A stretch of DNA of 64,000 nt from Nitrospira sp. (GTDB lineage Bacteria > Nitrospirota > Nitrospiria > Nitrospirales > Nitrospiraceae), in assembly GCA_024330925.1 (NCBI GenBank), contig JANDJK010000001.1, positions 1 through 64,000 of the forward strand. Direction: 5' to 3'. Positions within the stretch are counted from its first letter, which is position 1. The number at the start of each line of letters is the position of its first letter. The notes beneath the pieces are model-generated. The model made no database searches, was not told the DNA's origin, and was given only the letters and a program-made list of their open reading frames with translations. Shown here piece after piece: positions 36,439-46,875 of this stretch. The position numbers were made by a program, and so were the translations under genes.

Positions 36439-36837
<399 letters not shown>

Positions 36838-36914: not shown

Positions 36915-37072
36915 GCCATGATGTCGCAATAGTCTTCTGCTGGCGTTTCTTGCCATGGACGAACGCCTTGCTGTGAAGATGGGGGGATCTCGCCGGTATG
37001 ATGCTCAGGAACTGGGAAGGCGCAGGTATGGGATGAACCTTGTGAGTGGTCTGTGAGCAGGAGGAAAAGGGA

Positions 37073-38482
37073 ATGAACGTGCGCGAGGTATTGGAGTTTG
37101 CCAGGAAACACAAGGTTCAGATCGTTGATCTGAAGTTTGTGGATTTGCCCGGTGTCTGGCAACACATGAGCATTCCGGTCAGCGAATTAACGGAACAGTT
37201 GTTCAAAGACGGTTCAGGCCTAGATGGTTCGTCAATTCGCGGCTGGAAAGCCATCAATAACAGTGATTTGTTGCTGATTCCCGATCCGACCACTGCCTGC
37301 CTCGATCCCTTTATGGCGGTGCCGACGCTCAGTTTGACAGGTAATGTGGTCGATCCGGTGTCTCGGCAAAATTATGACCGGGATCCACGGTACGTTGCGC
37401 AAAAAGCAGAGAAGTACCTCCAGAGCACCAAGATTGCTGATACGTCATACTGGGGACCAGAAGCAGAGTTTTTTATCTTCGATCACGTGCGATATGACCA
37501 GACAAGCCACTCTGGCTATTACTATCTCGATTCCGAAGAAGGGGTCTGGAATACAGGGAAGGAGGGATTTAACTTAGGGGGGAAAGTTCGGCATAAACAG
37601 GGTTATTTCCCCGTGTCGCCAGTAGATACCCAACAGGATATCCGAAGCGAAATGGTCCTTGAAATGGAAAAGGTTGGGATCGCTGTGGAAAAGCACCATC
37701 ACGAGACGGCAACCGCCGGACAGGCGGAAATTGACATCCGATTTGATACTCTCGTGAAAACTGCCGACAAGATGATGATGTATAAGTACATTGTTAAGAA
37801 CGTCGCGCGCCGGCATGGTAAAACGGTCACCTTCATGCCTAAGCCTCTCTTCGGCGATGCGGGGTCTGGGATGCACACTCACCAGAGTCTTTGGAAAGAT
37901 GGGAAGCCGTTGTTCGCGGGAAAGGAATATGCGGGCATCTCGGAAGTGTGCCTTTACTACATTGGGGGGATCCTGAAGCATGCACCAGCGTTGGCAGCCT
38001 TTACGAACCCGACAACAAACTCCTACAAACGGATTACACCGGGTTACGAAGCGCCTGTGTTACTGGCCTATTCCAGCAGGAATCGCTCTGCGGGCATTCG
38101 TATTCCAATGTATTCGCCTAGCCCAAAAGCCAAACGTATTGAGGTCCGATTCCCCGATCCCTCGTGCAACCCCTATTTAGCGTTTTCAGCTATGTTGATG
38201 GCGGGGTTGGATGGTATTCAGAACAAGATTCATCCAGGGGAACCAGCAGAAAAAGACCTGTATGATCTGGATCCCAGAGAGGCGGCCGGCATTCCCACGA
38301 TGCCGGGAAGCCTGGACGAGGCAATCGCCTGTCTCGAAAAGGACCATCAGTTTTTGCTGAAAGGTGAAGTGTTTACCGAGGACTTGATAGAGGCGTGGAT
38401 CAAGTACAAACGGGAGAAAGAAATCGATCCCGTCAGGTTACGACCGCACCCGTACGAATTTTTCCTTTATTACGATGTGTAG
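37073..38482 (+). CDS. glnA: Glutamine synthetase type I
   Basis: [18 protein letters not shown]...[10 protein letters not shown]...[10 protein letters not shown]; adenylylation-site motif [12 protein letters not shown]. Confidence 0.97.
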
Positions 38483-39156: not shown

Positions 39157-39930
39157 ATGGCAAAACGGGTACGAACAGGATTGACCAGAAGAGACATTTT
39201 GGAACGATACCTTGAACGATTCAAGCGACAAATCGATAAGTTTCAGCCATTTCTTTCACGCAAGCGTGTAGCTTTGTCGATTGACGAATTCGATGAAGAG
39301 ACCGAAGAGTTGATCGCGCAGGTGTTTGGAGCTGCCTCGGATCAAGTTGAGGCCTATCTTTATGCGAAGAGCGGCGAGGCTGCGCTCCTGCCGGAAGAAG
39401 CCCAAGAAACTGGTGTTCATGACATCGAGAGAGAGAGCCTTCAGCAACGGCGGCAAGTTTTGGAAAGTTGCCTGGCCGACTTGGAAATGCGATACCGCCT
39501 CCTGGCGAGACGACATGAGAATCAAAAGTCGGTCTACGCAGATCGTACCGTGGTCCAATACTATGCCTCGTATGACACGCGAAGCATTTCGTGTACGGCA
39601 ACGATCCGAGAAGTGGGCAAAATGTTCCAAAAGTACCGGATTGACGCCCTTTTGGTAGATGATGGTTCACGCTACATTGGAATCATTACTGATTCGGATT
39701 TGAGCCGGAAAGTTATTGCGAAGGGGCTTGATCCAGCCACCACCACGGTGGCTTCCTGCATGAGCCGATCCATTGTGACCATTGAAGAAGACGAGCCACT
39801 TGCTGATGCGCTGGCCCTTATGAAAAAACACATGATCCGCCACCTTCCCGTCACAGCCGATGGAACCATCATTGGCGTCTTGTCGGCGTCGGACCTGATT
39901 CGTGCCCTAGAAGATCGGTTGGCTGTCTGA
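39157..39930 (+). CDS. CBS-pair protein with N-terminal helical domain
   Basis: CBS repeats: SISCTATIREVGKMFQKYRIDALLVDDGSRYIGIITDSDLSRKVI and MSRSIVTIEEDEPLADALALMKKHMIRHLPVTADGTIIGVLSASDLIRAL. Confidence 0.88.
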   Translation: MAKRVRTGLTRRDILERYLERFKRQIDKFQPFLSRKRVALSIDEFDEETEELIAQVFGAASDQVEAYLYAKSGEAALLPEEAQETGVHDIERESLQQRRQVLESCLADLEMRYRLLARRHENQKSVYADRTVVQYYASYDTRSISCTATIREVGKMFQKYRIDALLVDDGSRYIGIITDSDLSRKVIAKGLDPATTTVASCMSRSIVTIEEDEPLADALALMKKHMIRHLPVTADGTIIGVLSASDLIRALEDRLAV

Positions 39931-41818: not shown

Positions 41819-42202
41819 CTAGAAGTCGTCGAGAGCTATTGGACGAAGCAGATCTCGAACGGACAGTACCCCGACGATGGTGTCCCCTTTCCGCACCACC
41901 AGGTGCTGGATATTGTAACGGTACATGAGGTCAGCAGCTTCCGTAATGGGCCGTCGTTCATCGATATCGACCAGAGGCGTGCTCATGATCACGCCGATCG
42001 GAAATAGAGATGGCTCCTGACCCCTTCCCAATACTTTCCGCACGATGTCCGACGTGGTCACAATGCCAACAAAATGATGGTCGTGTTCTACGAGAATGCT
42101 TCCCACCCGATGGGCTGACATGGATCTGGCAGCCTCAACAGTTGTCATCGTTCCTGGCCCTGTCACCACCTTGTGATTCACCAGTTGTCCAACTGTGACC
42201 AT
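41819..42202 (-). CDS. CBS-pair protein
   Basis: MVTVGQLVNHKVVTGPGTMTTVEAARSMSAHRVGSILVEHDHHFVGIVTTSDIVRKVLG...PITEAADLMYRYNIQHLVVRKGDTIVGVLSVRDLL; internal ATG chosen. Confidence 0.87.
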   Translation of the reverse strand: MVTVGQLVNHKVVTGPGTMTTVEAARSMSAHRVGSILVEHDHHFVGIVTTSDIVRKVLGRGQEPSLFPIGVIMSTPLVDIDERRPITEAADLMYRYNIQHLVVRKGDTIVGVLSVRDLLRPIALDDF

Positions 42203-42790
42203 CGAATTCCCCCTCTTATCCAAACAAACGCGAACAAACGTTGATATCAAGAAATTTGTTTGTTCTTCTTTTCGAAGCAAACAGTATCGTCCGCGCGTTG
42301 CAGAACCATATTCACTGGGTAAAGCTTCTGTTAATCCTGCGTGTGTGGGGGACTCTTGTATGGAGAGAGACAAAAGATGCGGACGGATCGGTCAGTCTGC
42401 GCAACAATGTTCAGCTTGGCGCGGAAAGTCCAGGGATCGGGGACTGATCTCCCGTCAAAAATCGTCCTCATGGAGGAAGCCCTGATCCCCACTTATAAGC
42501 GATCACAATGTCGGGGTCACACCGGGTATGTTTTCTGAAACGAAGACAATAAAAGCGATGATTTCACAGGACGGTCAGATAGCCATACGGGGCTTGAGAT
42601 AGGTTCAAACCCATAGAGACTCCCTACCAAGAGCAAGGGCACTGCTCCTCTAGGAAAGCCGGCAGAATACAAGGGCGTTGCGTTCTCAGCTGGTTCTGCG
42701 GTGATCAGTTGGGAATCTCTGGAGGTGTCAGGTTGAAAGATTGTTTGAGCTGGCCTGCCTAGGCTGACCTCGTTGCCCCTCGTCTCTCGT

Positions 42791-45064
42791 TTATAACTTC
42801 CCGAACATCTCGTCAAAGAATTCCCGCGTCCGGCTCATATGGTGCTTGATGTCAGTATGAAGGTGGCGGGCTCCGGCCTGCCAGTCGTCGGTCATGTAGC
42901 CGATGCGACGGGCAAGAAAGACGAATTCATCGGAGTCAGGCGGCGGAAGCACGAGGTCTCTTGTGTTGCCCCGGACCATGCGGAGGCCATCGATCAACAG
43001 GCGAAGAAAAAGATATGCCTTTCGGAGTTCCTCTCCGGTCTGACGCGGGAGAAAGCCGCCGTCGACCAATGCGGCCAACGCCTGCAAGGTATTGGGGGTG
43101 CGTAGGCGGGGGTCCTTGTGTCCGTGCATAAGCTGCAAGTACTGGACAGCGTATTCGATCGTTACGATACCGCCATGGCTATGCTTTAAGTGTATCTGTC
43201 CCGGTTTGACCAGTTGGGCAATTTGCTGACGGCGCAGCTCCAGTGCGGCGGTCAGGTCCCAGGGAGCGCCGCTATAGACGTACCGGTCCCGGTGGGTCTC
43301 TACTTGCTGGCCTAGGGTAGCGTCGCCAGCCACAAAACGGAGCTTGATTAAGGCTTGTCGCTCAAAGGGTGCAGCCAATCCGCCAGGACTGTAATAGGAG
43401 CAGATTTCATCATATGTGTTGGCAAGCGACCCCTTTTCGCCGTGGGGCCGAAGACGCACGTCAAGGTGGAAGATGCCTTCGCGTTTGGCCTCGATCCGTT
43501 GCAGCAGTTCCTGCGCCAGCCGCTCAAAGTATTCGCTGTTGTCAAGGGACTGGTTCCCGCGCGTGCGGCCGAGACCTCCATAAACAAACAATACTTCGAT
43601 GTCCGAGGCATAACCCATTTCGCGCCCGCCAAATTTGCCAGCTCCAAAAATGGCGAAGGGACACGGAGTCTTATCATCGAGTTGGGGCAACCCATAGAGG
43701 CGGTTCAGTTTGGCTTGGCAATCAAACAGCGCACGTTCAACAATCACCTCGGCCAATTGACTAATGGCCAATGAGAAGTCGGGCAGGCTGGTTGACGGAT
43801 CGACAATGTGTTTCATATCGATCCGGAACAGTTCGCGGTCTTTAAATTGATTTAAGGCAGCCTTCTTAGCCTTGTCCGTCTTTGCTTTGTTCACAGCCGC
43901 ATTGAGTTCTTTCCGCAATGCCGCGAGTGGCTTGATGAGTGGTTCATCCCGGTAGTTTTGTAAAAGCGGAAGCAAGTTGTCGTATTGCCGACGAAGAAAA
44001 TCTTCCCACAGAAAGTCGCTTGCGCCGAGCACACGCGCTAATAGAGGCAGGCTTTTTTTGTCGCTCACGAATGACAAGGCCTGGCGGGCCCCCTTACCTT
44101 GATTTTTGACGATGAGGTCCAGAAATTGGTCAAATGAATCCAGCGCCTTGGCCGGATTGGGTGCCCAGGTGAGGGCATGGGTAAACTGCTTGATCAAGGT
44201 GGCGGTGACGCGAAGTTGCTCCTGCTCGGCGTGGTCCAATAACTTGTGGCCGTACCGATTGCGGACAAAAAACCGGTCGTGGATTTTGTGCCCCACGTTT
44301 TCGACCTGGGCCTTGCTGACATAAATGTTACGCATAGCTAGGGCGTTGGCAAACGCGTATAGAAAGGCTGGCGTGTCGTCAGATTGAATGTCCATGACTG
44401 TATCGGTGGATGATCGGCTGTTGTCAAAGGTGATATGAATGGTGTGCAGGAGGCCACGGAACGAGCTGCGCCGTTTGCTGAGCCATTCAACCAGTTGACG
44501 GTTGACCGCTTGGCGTGTCTCCGCGAATTGGCCGGCGTCGAGCCGTCTAAGCAGATTGGTGAGTGCAGTAACGAAGCGGTGGCGCTCGTTTGATCCAAAT
44601 GACACGCCAGGCTCTCGTTGCACGAGGAACACATCGACGATCTTTTTTCTCGTCAGGCCCGGTCTGGCTTTCTGATGTAGTCGGCCTTCGGCGTCGAATC
44701 GACTCCGAGGCGTCGGTGCAACTGGCCGTTCTGCGAATGTATAGATCATCCCCTCTTTGATGTTGAGCCCAAAGGCGGACAGCAGGCCGCAGATGACAGC
44801 AAATTCGGAGAAGTAATCATAGGCAACGATCGTGACCACAATCTGGGCGCCATCTCGGTCTTCAATCGTAACTTCGCAAGGATGATCTGGAGTGAGCTGA
44901 GCGATCATGCCAATGTGACGGGCGATGGTGGACGGCTCGAAACGAAAAAAGTAGTCGGGATCCATTCGATCTAGAAAATCCTGCAGGATATCCGAAGGGA
45001 TGTCTCGACAGAAAGGAAGCAGCATGGCTGAGATCTGTTGGGGGTCCGAGATGAATGGTGCCAT
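42791..45064 (-). CDS. GlnE-like adenylyltransferase half fused to N-terminal GlnD-like tandem ACT region
   Basis: ACT-like EVTIEDRDGAQIVVTIVAYDYFSEFAVICGLLSAFGLNIKEGMIYTF and HITFDNSRSSTDTVMDIQSDDTPAFLYAFANALAMRNIYVSKAQVENVGHKIHDRFFVRNRYG; GlnE core FAIFGAGKFGGREMGYASDIEVLFVYGG...FHLDVRLRPHGEKGSLA...LKHSHGGIVTIEYAVQYLQLMHGH. Confidence 0.82.
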   Translation of the reverse strand: MAPFISDPQQISAMLLPFCRDIPSDILQDFLDRMDPDYFFRFEPSTIARHIGMIAQLTPDHPCEVTIEDRDGAQIVVTIVAYDYFSEFAVICGLLSAFGLNIKEGMIYTFAERPVAPTPRSRFDAEGRLHQKARPGLTRKKIVDVFLVQREPGVSFGSNERHRFVTALTNLLRRLDAGQFAETRQAVNRQLVEWLSKRRSSFRGLLHTIHITFDNSRSSTDTVMDIQSDDTPAFLYAFANALAMRNIYVSKAQVENVGHKIHDRFFVRNRYGHKLLDHAEQEQLRVTATLIKQFTHALTWAPNPAKALDSFDQFLDLIVKNQGKGARQALSFVSDKKSLPLLARVLGASDFLWEDFLRRQYDNLLPLLQNYRDEPLIKPLAALRKELNAAVNKAKTDKAKKAALNQFKDRELFRIDMKHIVDPSTSLPDFSLAISQLAEVIVERALFDCQAKLNRLYGLPQLDDKTPCPFAIFGAGKFGGREMGYASDIEVLFVYGGLGRTRGNQSLDNSEYFERLAQELLQRIEAKREGIFHLDVRLRPHGEKGSLANTYDEICSYYSPGGLAAPFERQALIKLRFVAGDATLGQQVETHRDRYVYSGAPWDLTAALELRRQQIAQLVKPGQIHLKHSHGGIVTIEYAVQYLQLMHGHKDPRLRTPNTLQALAALVDGGFLPRQTGEELRKAYLFLRLLIDGLRMVRGNTRDLVLPPPDSDEFVFLARRIGYMTDDWQAGARHLHTDIKHHMSRTREFFDEMFGKL

Positions 45065-45111
45065 ACTTGCCAGTATACCGGAATGGACTGGAACAGTATA
45101 ATGTCCCTATC

Positions 45112-46875
45112 ATGCCCTCATTTTCTCCGAACAAACCCGTCGCTGTTCGAGCGGACAAGCCTGATCCTCGTTCCATTTTGCTAGCGCCTGCTCGAAGTCT
45201 TGATCGGGTACGAGCCATTCTCTCTGCCTATCGTCTGCATGATGTCGAGCGGGCCGATCGGAATTTGCAATCCATGGCGGGAGAACCGTACCACCGGCGA
45301 CGGTTAGCGGAACTGTTGCCGAGCTTGTTGACGTATATCGCCAAAACGGCAGATCCCGATCAGGCGCTGAACCATTGGGAACGACTGTTCAGCAGTATGG
45401 GGAAGGGAGTTCTGCTTGAGTATCTGTTAGGGGCTCCGCGTGTGCTTGAGTTGCTCTGCACGATCTTTGGAAATAGTGATGCACTCGCCGTTACAATCCT
45501 ACGTGACCCCACACTTGTCTATTGGCTGGGGGAACCAGATGTGTTAGCCAGGCCGGTTAGCCGGGCCGAAATGGAACGGTCGCTGGATGAGCAGTTGGCC
45601 AGATTGACGGTGACCGATCTCAAACTCGATGTGTTGCGTCGCTACCGGCGACGAGAATTGTTACGCATTGGAACACGCGATCTGTTGCGATGGGCTGATG
45701 TGCTGGAGACGACCGCTGCCCTGTCCGATTTGGCGAGCGTGTTGATCCAGGCAGCCTATGAAATCGTTGATGCGGACCTGCGGCGACAGTACGGTGTTCC
45801 TATGCATCGGAATCGAATGGGGCGGTGGGTCGAGACAGGCTTTGCTGTGATTGGCGTGGGCAAGCTTGGTGGTCACGAACTCAACTACAGTTCGGATGTC
45901 GATTTGATCTATGTCTATGCTTCGCACAAGGGAGCAACGCGGGCGCCTCGCCGCGTGTCCGGGATGTCGCCTAGTGCTGTTGGCATTTCCAATGAGGAAT
46001 ATTTTGAGATCCTGTCCCGCGAACTCACGAGGGTGCTGACAGAGAAGACCAAGGAGGGATCTGTGTTTCGTGTGGACCTTCGGTTGCGGGCTGAGGGAGC
46101 GGTGGGGCAATTGGCGCGATCGCTGGAAGACTATGCGGCCTATTATCGAACGCGCGGCGCGGTGTGGGAACGGTTGGCTCTGCTTAAGGCGTGGCCGATT
46201 GCTGGATCAGTGGATGTGGGGCGGGCATTTTTGCGAATGGTCAAGCCCTTCATTCTTGGTGGGACCAAGGTGAAACCTGATTGGCAGGAGGCATTGGCCA
46301 TTATAGCCGAGGTGCGGGGTGTGAAGGACATGATTGATGCCAAGATTGCTGATCGCGGCCAGGGGCAACGCAATGTGAAGCTCGGTATTGGGGGGATCCG
46401 CGAGATCGAGTTTTTTATACAGACAATCCAGGTGATTGCGGGCAAATGGCTTCCTGGTCTGTTGGATCGGAACACGCTTCGCTCATTGGACCGCTGCGCC
46501 CACTATCGGTTGATTTCACAGCGGCAGCGAGACGACTTAGTCGCCGCTTATTTGTTTCTTCGGGATGTTGAGCACAAACTGCAGTTGGTGGATGACTTGC
46601 AGACTCATACCCTTCCTGAAGAGGAAGAGGCATTGAAGCGGTGCGCGATTCGAATGGGATACGATGCGGAGGATCCATCCCGGGGCGTCAAACAATTTCA
46701 CGCCGACCATCAGCACCACCGCACAGTCGTTCGTCGGCTCTTCGCCGACTTATTCCGAGAGCCACAGACTTCGCCCCTCTTGAAGGCCGTATTACGAATT
46801 GCCGAGGCGAAACAGTTAAGAGAAGAGGAAAAAAGGAAGGGAAAAAAGAAGGCAAAGCTTCCCACGCACAATTGA
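45112..46875 (+). CDS. GlnE-like protein matching the N-terminal (adenylyl-removase) half
   Basis: FAVIGVGKLGGHELNYSSDVDLIYVYASH...VFRVDLRLRAEGAVGQLARSLEDYAAYYRTRGAVWERLALLKAWPIAG...KLGIGGIREIEFFIQTIQVI; internal ATG preferred over 45055. Confidence 0.85.
   Translation: MPSFSPNKPVAVRADKPDPRSILLAPARSLDRVRAILSAYRLHDVERADRNLQSMAGEPYHRRRLAELLPSLLTYIAKTADPDQALNHWERLFSSMGKGVLLEYLLGAPRVLELLCTIFGNSDALAVTILRDPTLVYWLGEPDVLARPVSRAEMERSLDEQLARLTVTDLKLDVLRRYRRRELLRIGTRDLLRWADVLETTAALSDLASVLIQAAYEIVDADLRRQYGVPMHRNRMGRWVETGFAVIGVGKLGGHELNYSSDVDLIYVYASHKGATRAPRRVSGMSPSAVGISNEEYFEILSRELTRVLTEKTKEGSVFRVDLRLRAEGAVGQLARSLEDYAAYYRTRGAVWERLALLKAWPIAGSVDVGRAFLRMVKPFILGGTKVKPDWQEALAIIAEVRGVKDMIDAKIADRGQGQRNVKLGIGGIREIEFFIQTIQVIAGKWLPGLLDRNTLRSLDRCAHYRLISQRQRDDLVAAYLFLRDVEHKLQLVDDLQTHTLPEEEEALKRCAIRMGYDAEDPSRGVKQFHADHQHHRTVVRRLFADLFREPQTSPLLKAVLRIAEAKQLREEEKRKGKKKAKLPTHN

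Follow-up and report, generated by a model that had tools for sequence, protein, structure and literature searches.

In the 64,000-nucleotide stretch of a Nitrospira sp. genome analysed here (positions 1 to 64,000 of contig JANDJK010000001.1, assembly GCA_024330925.1; hereafter the window), GlnE is split between two divergently encoded proteins: a stand-alone N-terminal half, predicted to be the adenylyl-removing (AR) protein, and a fusion, ACT-GlnE, in which the second GlnE core is preceded by a sensor module of the GlnD type. The split and the sensor module are conserved throughout the class, the catalytic carboxylates are conserved (as D-x-E in the fusion), and GlnD has been lost repeatedly while PII was kept. 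We infer that ACT-GlnE is the adenylyltransferase (AT) for glutamine synthetase (GS), that glutamine is the ligand that would turn it on, and that the promoters of the two genes would compete. Reversible adenylylation of GS is a textbook two-tier regulatory cascade, and in this class of ecologically central nitrifiers the second-tier enzyme has been cut in two and a first-tier sensor grafted onto one of the parts.

Each of two divergent genes encodes one GlnE core

ACT-GlnE (42791–45064, minus strand) has 757 residues, and the AR protein (45112–46875, plus strand) has 587. The plus-strand open reading frame (ORF) that was called mechanically (45055–46875) counts 606 residues from its first ATG; because a TATAAT -10 box (45097–45102, plus strand) stands 9 nt ahead of the ATG at 45112 and is kept there in relatives, translation probably starts at 45112 and not at 45055. 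Each protein contains one GlnE nucleotidyltransferase core (PF03710, E 5.5e-41 and 1.1e-57) followed by one helical GlnD_UR_UTase domain (PF08335, E 4e-15 and 8e-30), and the Pfam matches are all well above cut-off. In the fusion, the core spans 43298–44041 (minus strand; residues 342–589) and the helical domain spans 42803–43198 (minus strand; residues 623–754). In the AR protein, they occupy 45448–46236 and 46321–46755 (plus strand). Both proteins score under the NCBIfam equivalog cut-offs for GlnE, and no polypeptide with two cores is formed, as one core lies on each strand. The initial annotation, which described back-to-back ORFs of 757 aa (minus) and about 587 aa (plus) with one GlnE-type core apiece, is thus borne out.

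An intact GlnE elsewhere in the genome was searched for in the assembly, and no further GlnE core was found in this metagenome-assembled genome (MAG; 2.44 Mb, 149 contigs, 90.6% complete), which rules out a hidden intact copy in the present assembly. An assembly or frameshift artefact is also ruled out by the identical head-to-head pair found class-wide, including in single-contig genomes.

The fusion carries the sensory region of GlnD

The ~285 N-terminal residues of ACT-GlnE align end to end with the pre-ACT, ACT1 and ACT2 regions of GlnD. NCBIfam TIGR01693 (GlnD) matches residues 21–285 with an E value of 2e-21, although the score of 75.7 bits is far under that of a full GlnD (cut-off 519). 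By hhalign, residues ~19–285 align with GlnD 644–878 (99.4%, E 4e-21), a stretch that takes in the pre-ACT segment and both ACT domains. The pre-ACT segment (44885–45010, minus strand; residues ~19–60, RMDPDYFFRFEPSTIARH) is, by hhalign against GlnD, the counterpart of QFPLRYxYxTSPxRIAAH. It is followed by ACT-like domain 1 (44537–44878, minus strand; residues ~63–176) and ACT-like domain 2 (44210–44452, minus strand; residues ~205–285), the latter with the loop DDTPAFLY. In contrast to GlnD, the fusion has neither an HD (uridylyl-removing) domain, of which Pfam finds none, nor a GlnD-type transferase domain; its ACT domains are N-terminal rather than C-terminal, the ligand-loop glycines are lost, and ACT1 contains an insert of ~30 residues that is predicted with low confidence.

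AlphaFold folds residues 1–300 into two ACT-like units with a mean predicted local distance difference test (pLDDT) score of 80.5. A sequence-profile search of the PDB with the sensor module gave no match, and neighbours were obtained only by fold: the solved neighbours returned by Foldseek are mainly ACT proteins, namely the ACT region of the large glutamate dehydrogenase, threonine dehydratase, GcvR-like and SerB2 proteins. The best of these lie in the N-terminal region of the large (180-kDa) NAD-glutamate dehydrogenase, which is a different enzyme and aligns weakly overall (query-normalised TM 0.27–0.38). The predicted structure thus indicates an ACT-type fold for the N-terminal region, and TIGR01693, hhalign, AlphaFold and Foldseek agree on the two GlnD-like ACT regions that had been proposed for these ~300 residues. 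The only convincing Pfam match is that of ACT2 to PF24931, the ACR9-like ACT domain of plants (27 of 28 members). Plant ACR9 and ACR11 likewise have GlnD-like ACT repeats tied to nitrogen assimilation (PMC3173338), but ACR11 and its kin are stand-alone sensors without a catalytic domain.

Assignment of the two activities

In E. coli GlnE, the AR activity is N-terminal and the AT activity is C-terminal (PMC12409994). The plus-strand protein clusters in our tree with the N-terminal (AR) halves of GlnE (support 100/98), its family retains the AR residue signatures, and its D-x-D motif and third Asp are intact (D281, D283 and D341 in the numbering of the 606-aa ORF). On these sequence features it is the AR half, in line with its first identification as the N-terminal half of GlnE.

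The residues of ACT-GlnE lean towards the opposite activity. The fusion keeps only 3 of 15 AR-only invariant residues at ≥80%, the signature residues R324, E325, H382, Q385, Q391, T392 and N169 (E. coli numbering) being gone, and 7 of 16 AT-only residues, including Q785 and R828. The catalytic carboxylates of the fusion have been kept: D488 and E490 of the D-x-E motif (43595–43603, minus strand) occur in every one of 42 class members, and D535 is the third. Because the AR activity is covered by the other protein and there is no third core in the genome, the fusion is most likely the AT, by elimination together with these residue signatures.

The split is conserved across the class

The distribution of the split was followed in a phylum sample of 158 genomes and a class-wide sample of 117. 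A strong match was obtained in 101 of the 117 class genomes, and in 100 of these it is the ACT-GlnE fusion itself, full or nearly full in length, so the related splits that the initial annotation could only surmise exist class-wide. In the phylum sample, the split form occurs in members of the class to which the window belongs. The GlnE loci that were read in other classes encode single chains of ~930–1130 aa, and sampled genomes of these classes that have GlnE mostly carry the single-chain form. Wherever both genes are intact at the loci read, they are divergent, and the ACT module is kept at high identity throughout the class. Among the named relatives are Nitrospira moscoviensis, Ca. N. defluvii and the comammox MAGs CG24A and CG24E, with Nitrospira sp. 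SZTDM-2_Bin289 the nearest (92% identity). When plasmids were searched at the protein level, no copy of the fusion turned up. One MAG, Nitrospira sp. JZ-4_Bin198, has two ACT-GlnE copies on different contigs (L132 and L203), each ~81% identical to that of the window, which reflects either a duplication or a mixed bin.

GlnD is lost in most of the genus and PII is retained

No GlnD was found in the genome of the window by a model that finds full-length GlnD in other genera, which answers the question about glnD left by the initial annotation. By our own count, full-length GlnD is present in 85 of 87 sampled class genomes outside the genus (in two of the 85 it is in pieces). Within the genus it is present in 7 of 30 genomes, one of them partial, and absent from 23; the genomes without it include the single-contig G147 and G206, and also G000. 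None of the 6 genomes reached by name in the lineage of the window has it. The possibility that GlnD is present but missed is ruled out for this lineage, as the same model detects it in other genera and in the minority of the genus. The gene-pair tree demands at least two losses of GlnD within the genus. The partial GlnD (G070, contig C65) occurs in a genome nested inside a GlnD-less clade and represents either a misbinned contig or a late reacquisition of the gene. In the same tree, the gene pair of the window has an unusually long end branch compared with its relatives (0.46), as does the GlnD-less lineage G105 (0.34), possibly due to faster evolution after GlnD loss.

PII is retained with Tyr51 intact in GlnD-bearing and GlnD-less groups alike, in all genomes examined; loss of Tyr51 following the loss of GlnD was tested and not seen. 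A DUF294 nucleotidyltransferase was considered as a replacement for GlnD and had no match in the window's own genome. This genome bears amoA and is therefore comammox. A strict rule that ties GlnD loss to the comammox lifestyle is rejected, as amoA-negative GlnD-less and amoA-positive GlnD-bearing genomes both exist. A comammox review (PMC6311188) depicts GlnD among the clustered nitrogen genes of canonical Nitrospira, which fits the distribution found here.

The divergent promoters are predicted to overlap

The two start codons are separated by a spacer of 47 bp (45065–45111), which holds both -10 boxes. In addition to the TATAAT box of the AR gene, TATACT (45072–45077, minus strand) lies 7 nt ahead of the ACT-GlnE start codon. 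In an automatic count over 43 loci, the AR-side box is located 5–12 nt before the start (mostly 8 nt) in 31 and the ACT-GlnE-side box 6–11 nt before the start in 33, with both present in 28. As the boxes abut both start codons, the two messages are predicted to be leaderless, beginning at or beside the start codons. The boxes are ~37–39 bp apart in most relatives, which would make the -35 positions coincide, so that one polymerase is predicted to exclude the other. In the window, they are only 19 bp apart, and each -35 position lands on the -10 of the other gene. The divergent promoters are predicted, from these positions, to overlap and compete.

A proposed model of ACT-gated adenylylation and its alternatives

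We propose that the two opposing activities of GlnE would be carried by two proteins expressed from divergent, mutually overlapping promoters, with the AT half on the minus strand fused downstream of the sensory module that forms the last third of GlnD (pre-ACT and two ACT domains). When nitrogen is plentiful, an amino acid, most likely glutamine as in GlnD, would bind the ACT module and turn the AT on. The active AT would adenylylate GlnA at its conserved tyrosine, and the AR half, under the control of PII or of another input, would reverse the modification. A split AR paired with an ACT-gated AT that is switched by an amino acid is, as an overall explanation, moderately probable. Lineages without GlnD would depend on the ACT module for their sole remaining glutamine input of the GlnD type, with PII signalling nothing but 2-oxoglutarate and energy. 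It is a more tentative proposal that in GlnD-less Nitrospira, including comammox, the bicyclic GlnD-PII-GlnE cascade has collapsed, with glutamine acting directly on the ACT-gated AT, the AR separately expressed and regulated, and the two arms of GS control independent.

Several observations weigh against this reading. The first is that the majority of the class has GlnD alongside the split GlnE, and that PII with Tyr51 is kept in every genome examined, so that a bypass or replacement of GlnD was not the original role of the fusion. The partial bypass of the GlnD/PII relay suggested in the initial annotation nevertheless becomes more plausible with the absence of GlnD from the window genome and from most of the genus.

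The second concerns the ligand. A glycine in the β1-α1 loop is nearly invariant among ACT domains (PMC3173338), and it is absent from both ACT domains of the fusion in 37 of 37 aligned members: the residues where it is expected are SEFA in ACT1 and DTPA, with an invariant Ala, in ACT2. With this glycine missing from both domains, glutamine is a presumed ligand, put forward as the most likely one by analogy with GlnD. The loops are otherwise extremely conserved (D83, Y84, F88, C92 and G93 in ACT1; D230, P232, A233, F234 and L235 in ACT2; invariant in the aligned members), which argues for a specific role, as a different ligand or an interface would require. The split could then be real and the ACT module not bind glutamine at all, sensing another amino acid or doing no more than mediating dimerisation or docking, of PII or the AR protein for instance, with regulation left to PII, which is kept with Tyr51 in every genome examined. 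We regard this as unlikely, though it is the alternative that survives best. E. coli GlnD also lacks the glycine in ACT1 (it has one in ACT2), yet GlnD responds to glutamine (PMC4285133), and the module of the fusion covers the entire GlnD sensory region and is not a mere fragment of the fold.

The remaining difficulties lie in the catalytic core. In the tree, the fusion core forms a third branch, in a three-way split between the C-terminal halves, the ACT-GlnE cores, and the N-terminal halves with the AR proteins, on a stem of 1.5 substitutions per site. No grouping with the AT halves was obtained, and the separate, long-stemmed branch leaves orthology of the fusion to the C-terminal AT halves tentative. 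The D-x-E motif replaces a D-x-D and is absent from every other GlnE half examined, and PDB and structure scores of the fusion are no better for the AT half of E. coli GlnE than for the AR half. The early identification of the minus-strand protein as the C-terminal half of GlnE is thus favoured by the residue signatures and not by the tree. ACT-GlnE might instead be a third GlnE-like nucleotidyltransferase with another target, such as Tyr51 of PII, leaving the AR protein alone, or no protein, to act on GS; the separate long branch, the D-x-E motif, the GlnD-type sensor and the retention of Tyr51 where GlnD is lost are in keeping with this. It is nonetheless improbable. Most of the class has both the fusion and GlnD, so the fusion did not originate as a stand-in for GlnD; the AR protein alone would be left without a substrate; and at the loci read, the fusion gene and the AR gene form a head-to-head pair. 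Tyr51 may also persist unmodified, since in many PII proteins modification probably never takes place (PMC4285133).

Least likely is a trivial fission, in which both proteins act in one complex as a single-chain GlnE under PII and the ACT module is unimportant: a head-to-head pair with a common promoter region would be well suited to expressing two subunits equally, but a neutral ACT module would erode, above all in GlnD-less lineages, and it is instead highly conserved class-wide.

Relation to known GlnE and significance

The window pair shares with E. coli GlnE (PDB 1V4A, 3K7D) a GlnE core and a helical domain in both proteins and a total of two cores, and the AR protein is a clear orthologue of its N-terminal half. 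Unlike E. coli GlnE, the pair consists of two genes on opposite strands with no joining linker, and the core of the fusion has diverged strongly, reads D-x-E and follows a GlnD-type sensor. In E. coli the single-chain enzyme is itself responsive to glutamine. That glutamine should act directly on GlnE is therefore not new in principle, and the novelty is the architecture, not glutamine control as such. Full-text literature searches, whose coverage did not extend to subscription papers and preprints, returned no description of the ACT-GlnE fusion and no account of GlnE architecture in Nitrospira, so the prior characterisation that the initial annotation allowed for did not emerge. A metagenome paper (PMC6131200) labels two neighbouring genes of N. 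moscoviensis, NITMOv2_1289 and NITMOv2_1290, as GlnEB; these may be the present gene pair, in which case the split is perhaps already visible in annotation.

As several lineages afterwards dropped GlnD, the class offers a test case provided by nature for the relocation of glutamine sensing within the cascade. This is relevant to the balance between assimilation and energy metabolism in nitrifiers that live at very low ammonium. The two separate proteins also provide a simple route to studying the AT and AR activities singly.

Neighbouring genes and minor observations

The presumed substrate, a bacterial type I glutamine synthetase (GlnA; 37046–38482, plus strand), is encoded 4.3 kb from the GlnE pair, beside and downstream of the gene for a GlnB-type PII protein with Tyr51 (36499–36816, plus strand). 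The KDLYDL motif of GlnA, with the tyrosine of the adenylylation site, was aligned with solved GS. Two proteins encoded between glnA and the GlnE pair (39157–39930, plus strand; 41819–42373, minus strand) have paired CBS domains and are possibly adenylate sensors. At one relative's locus (L060, genome G018), ACT-GlnE is seemingly short by ~28 residues at ~459–486, directly before the catalytic motif, and the ORF of its AR partner is broken in two, which may indicate decay or an assembly error.

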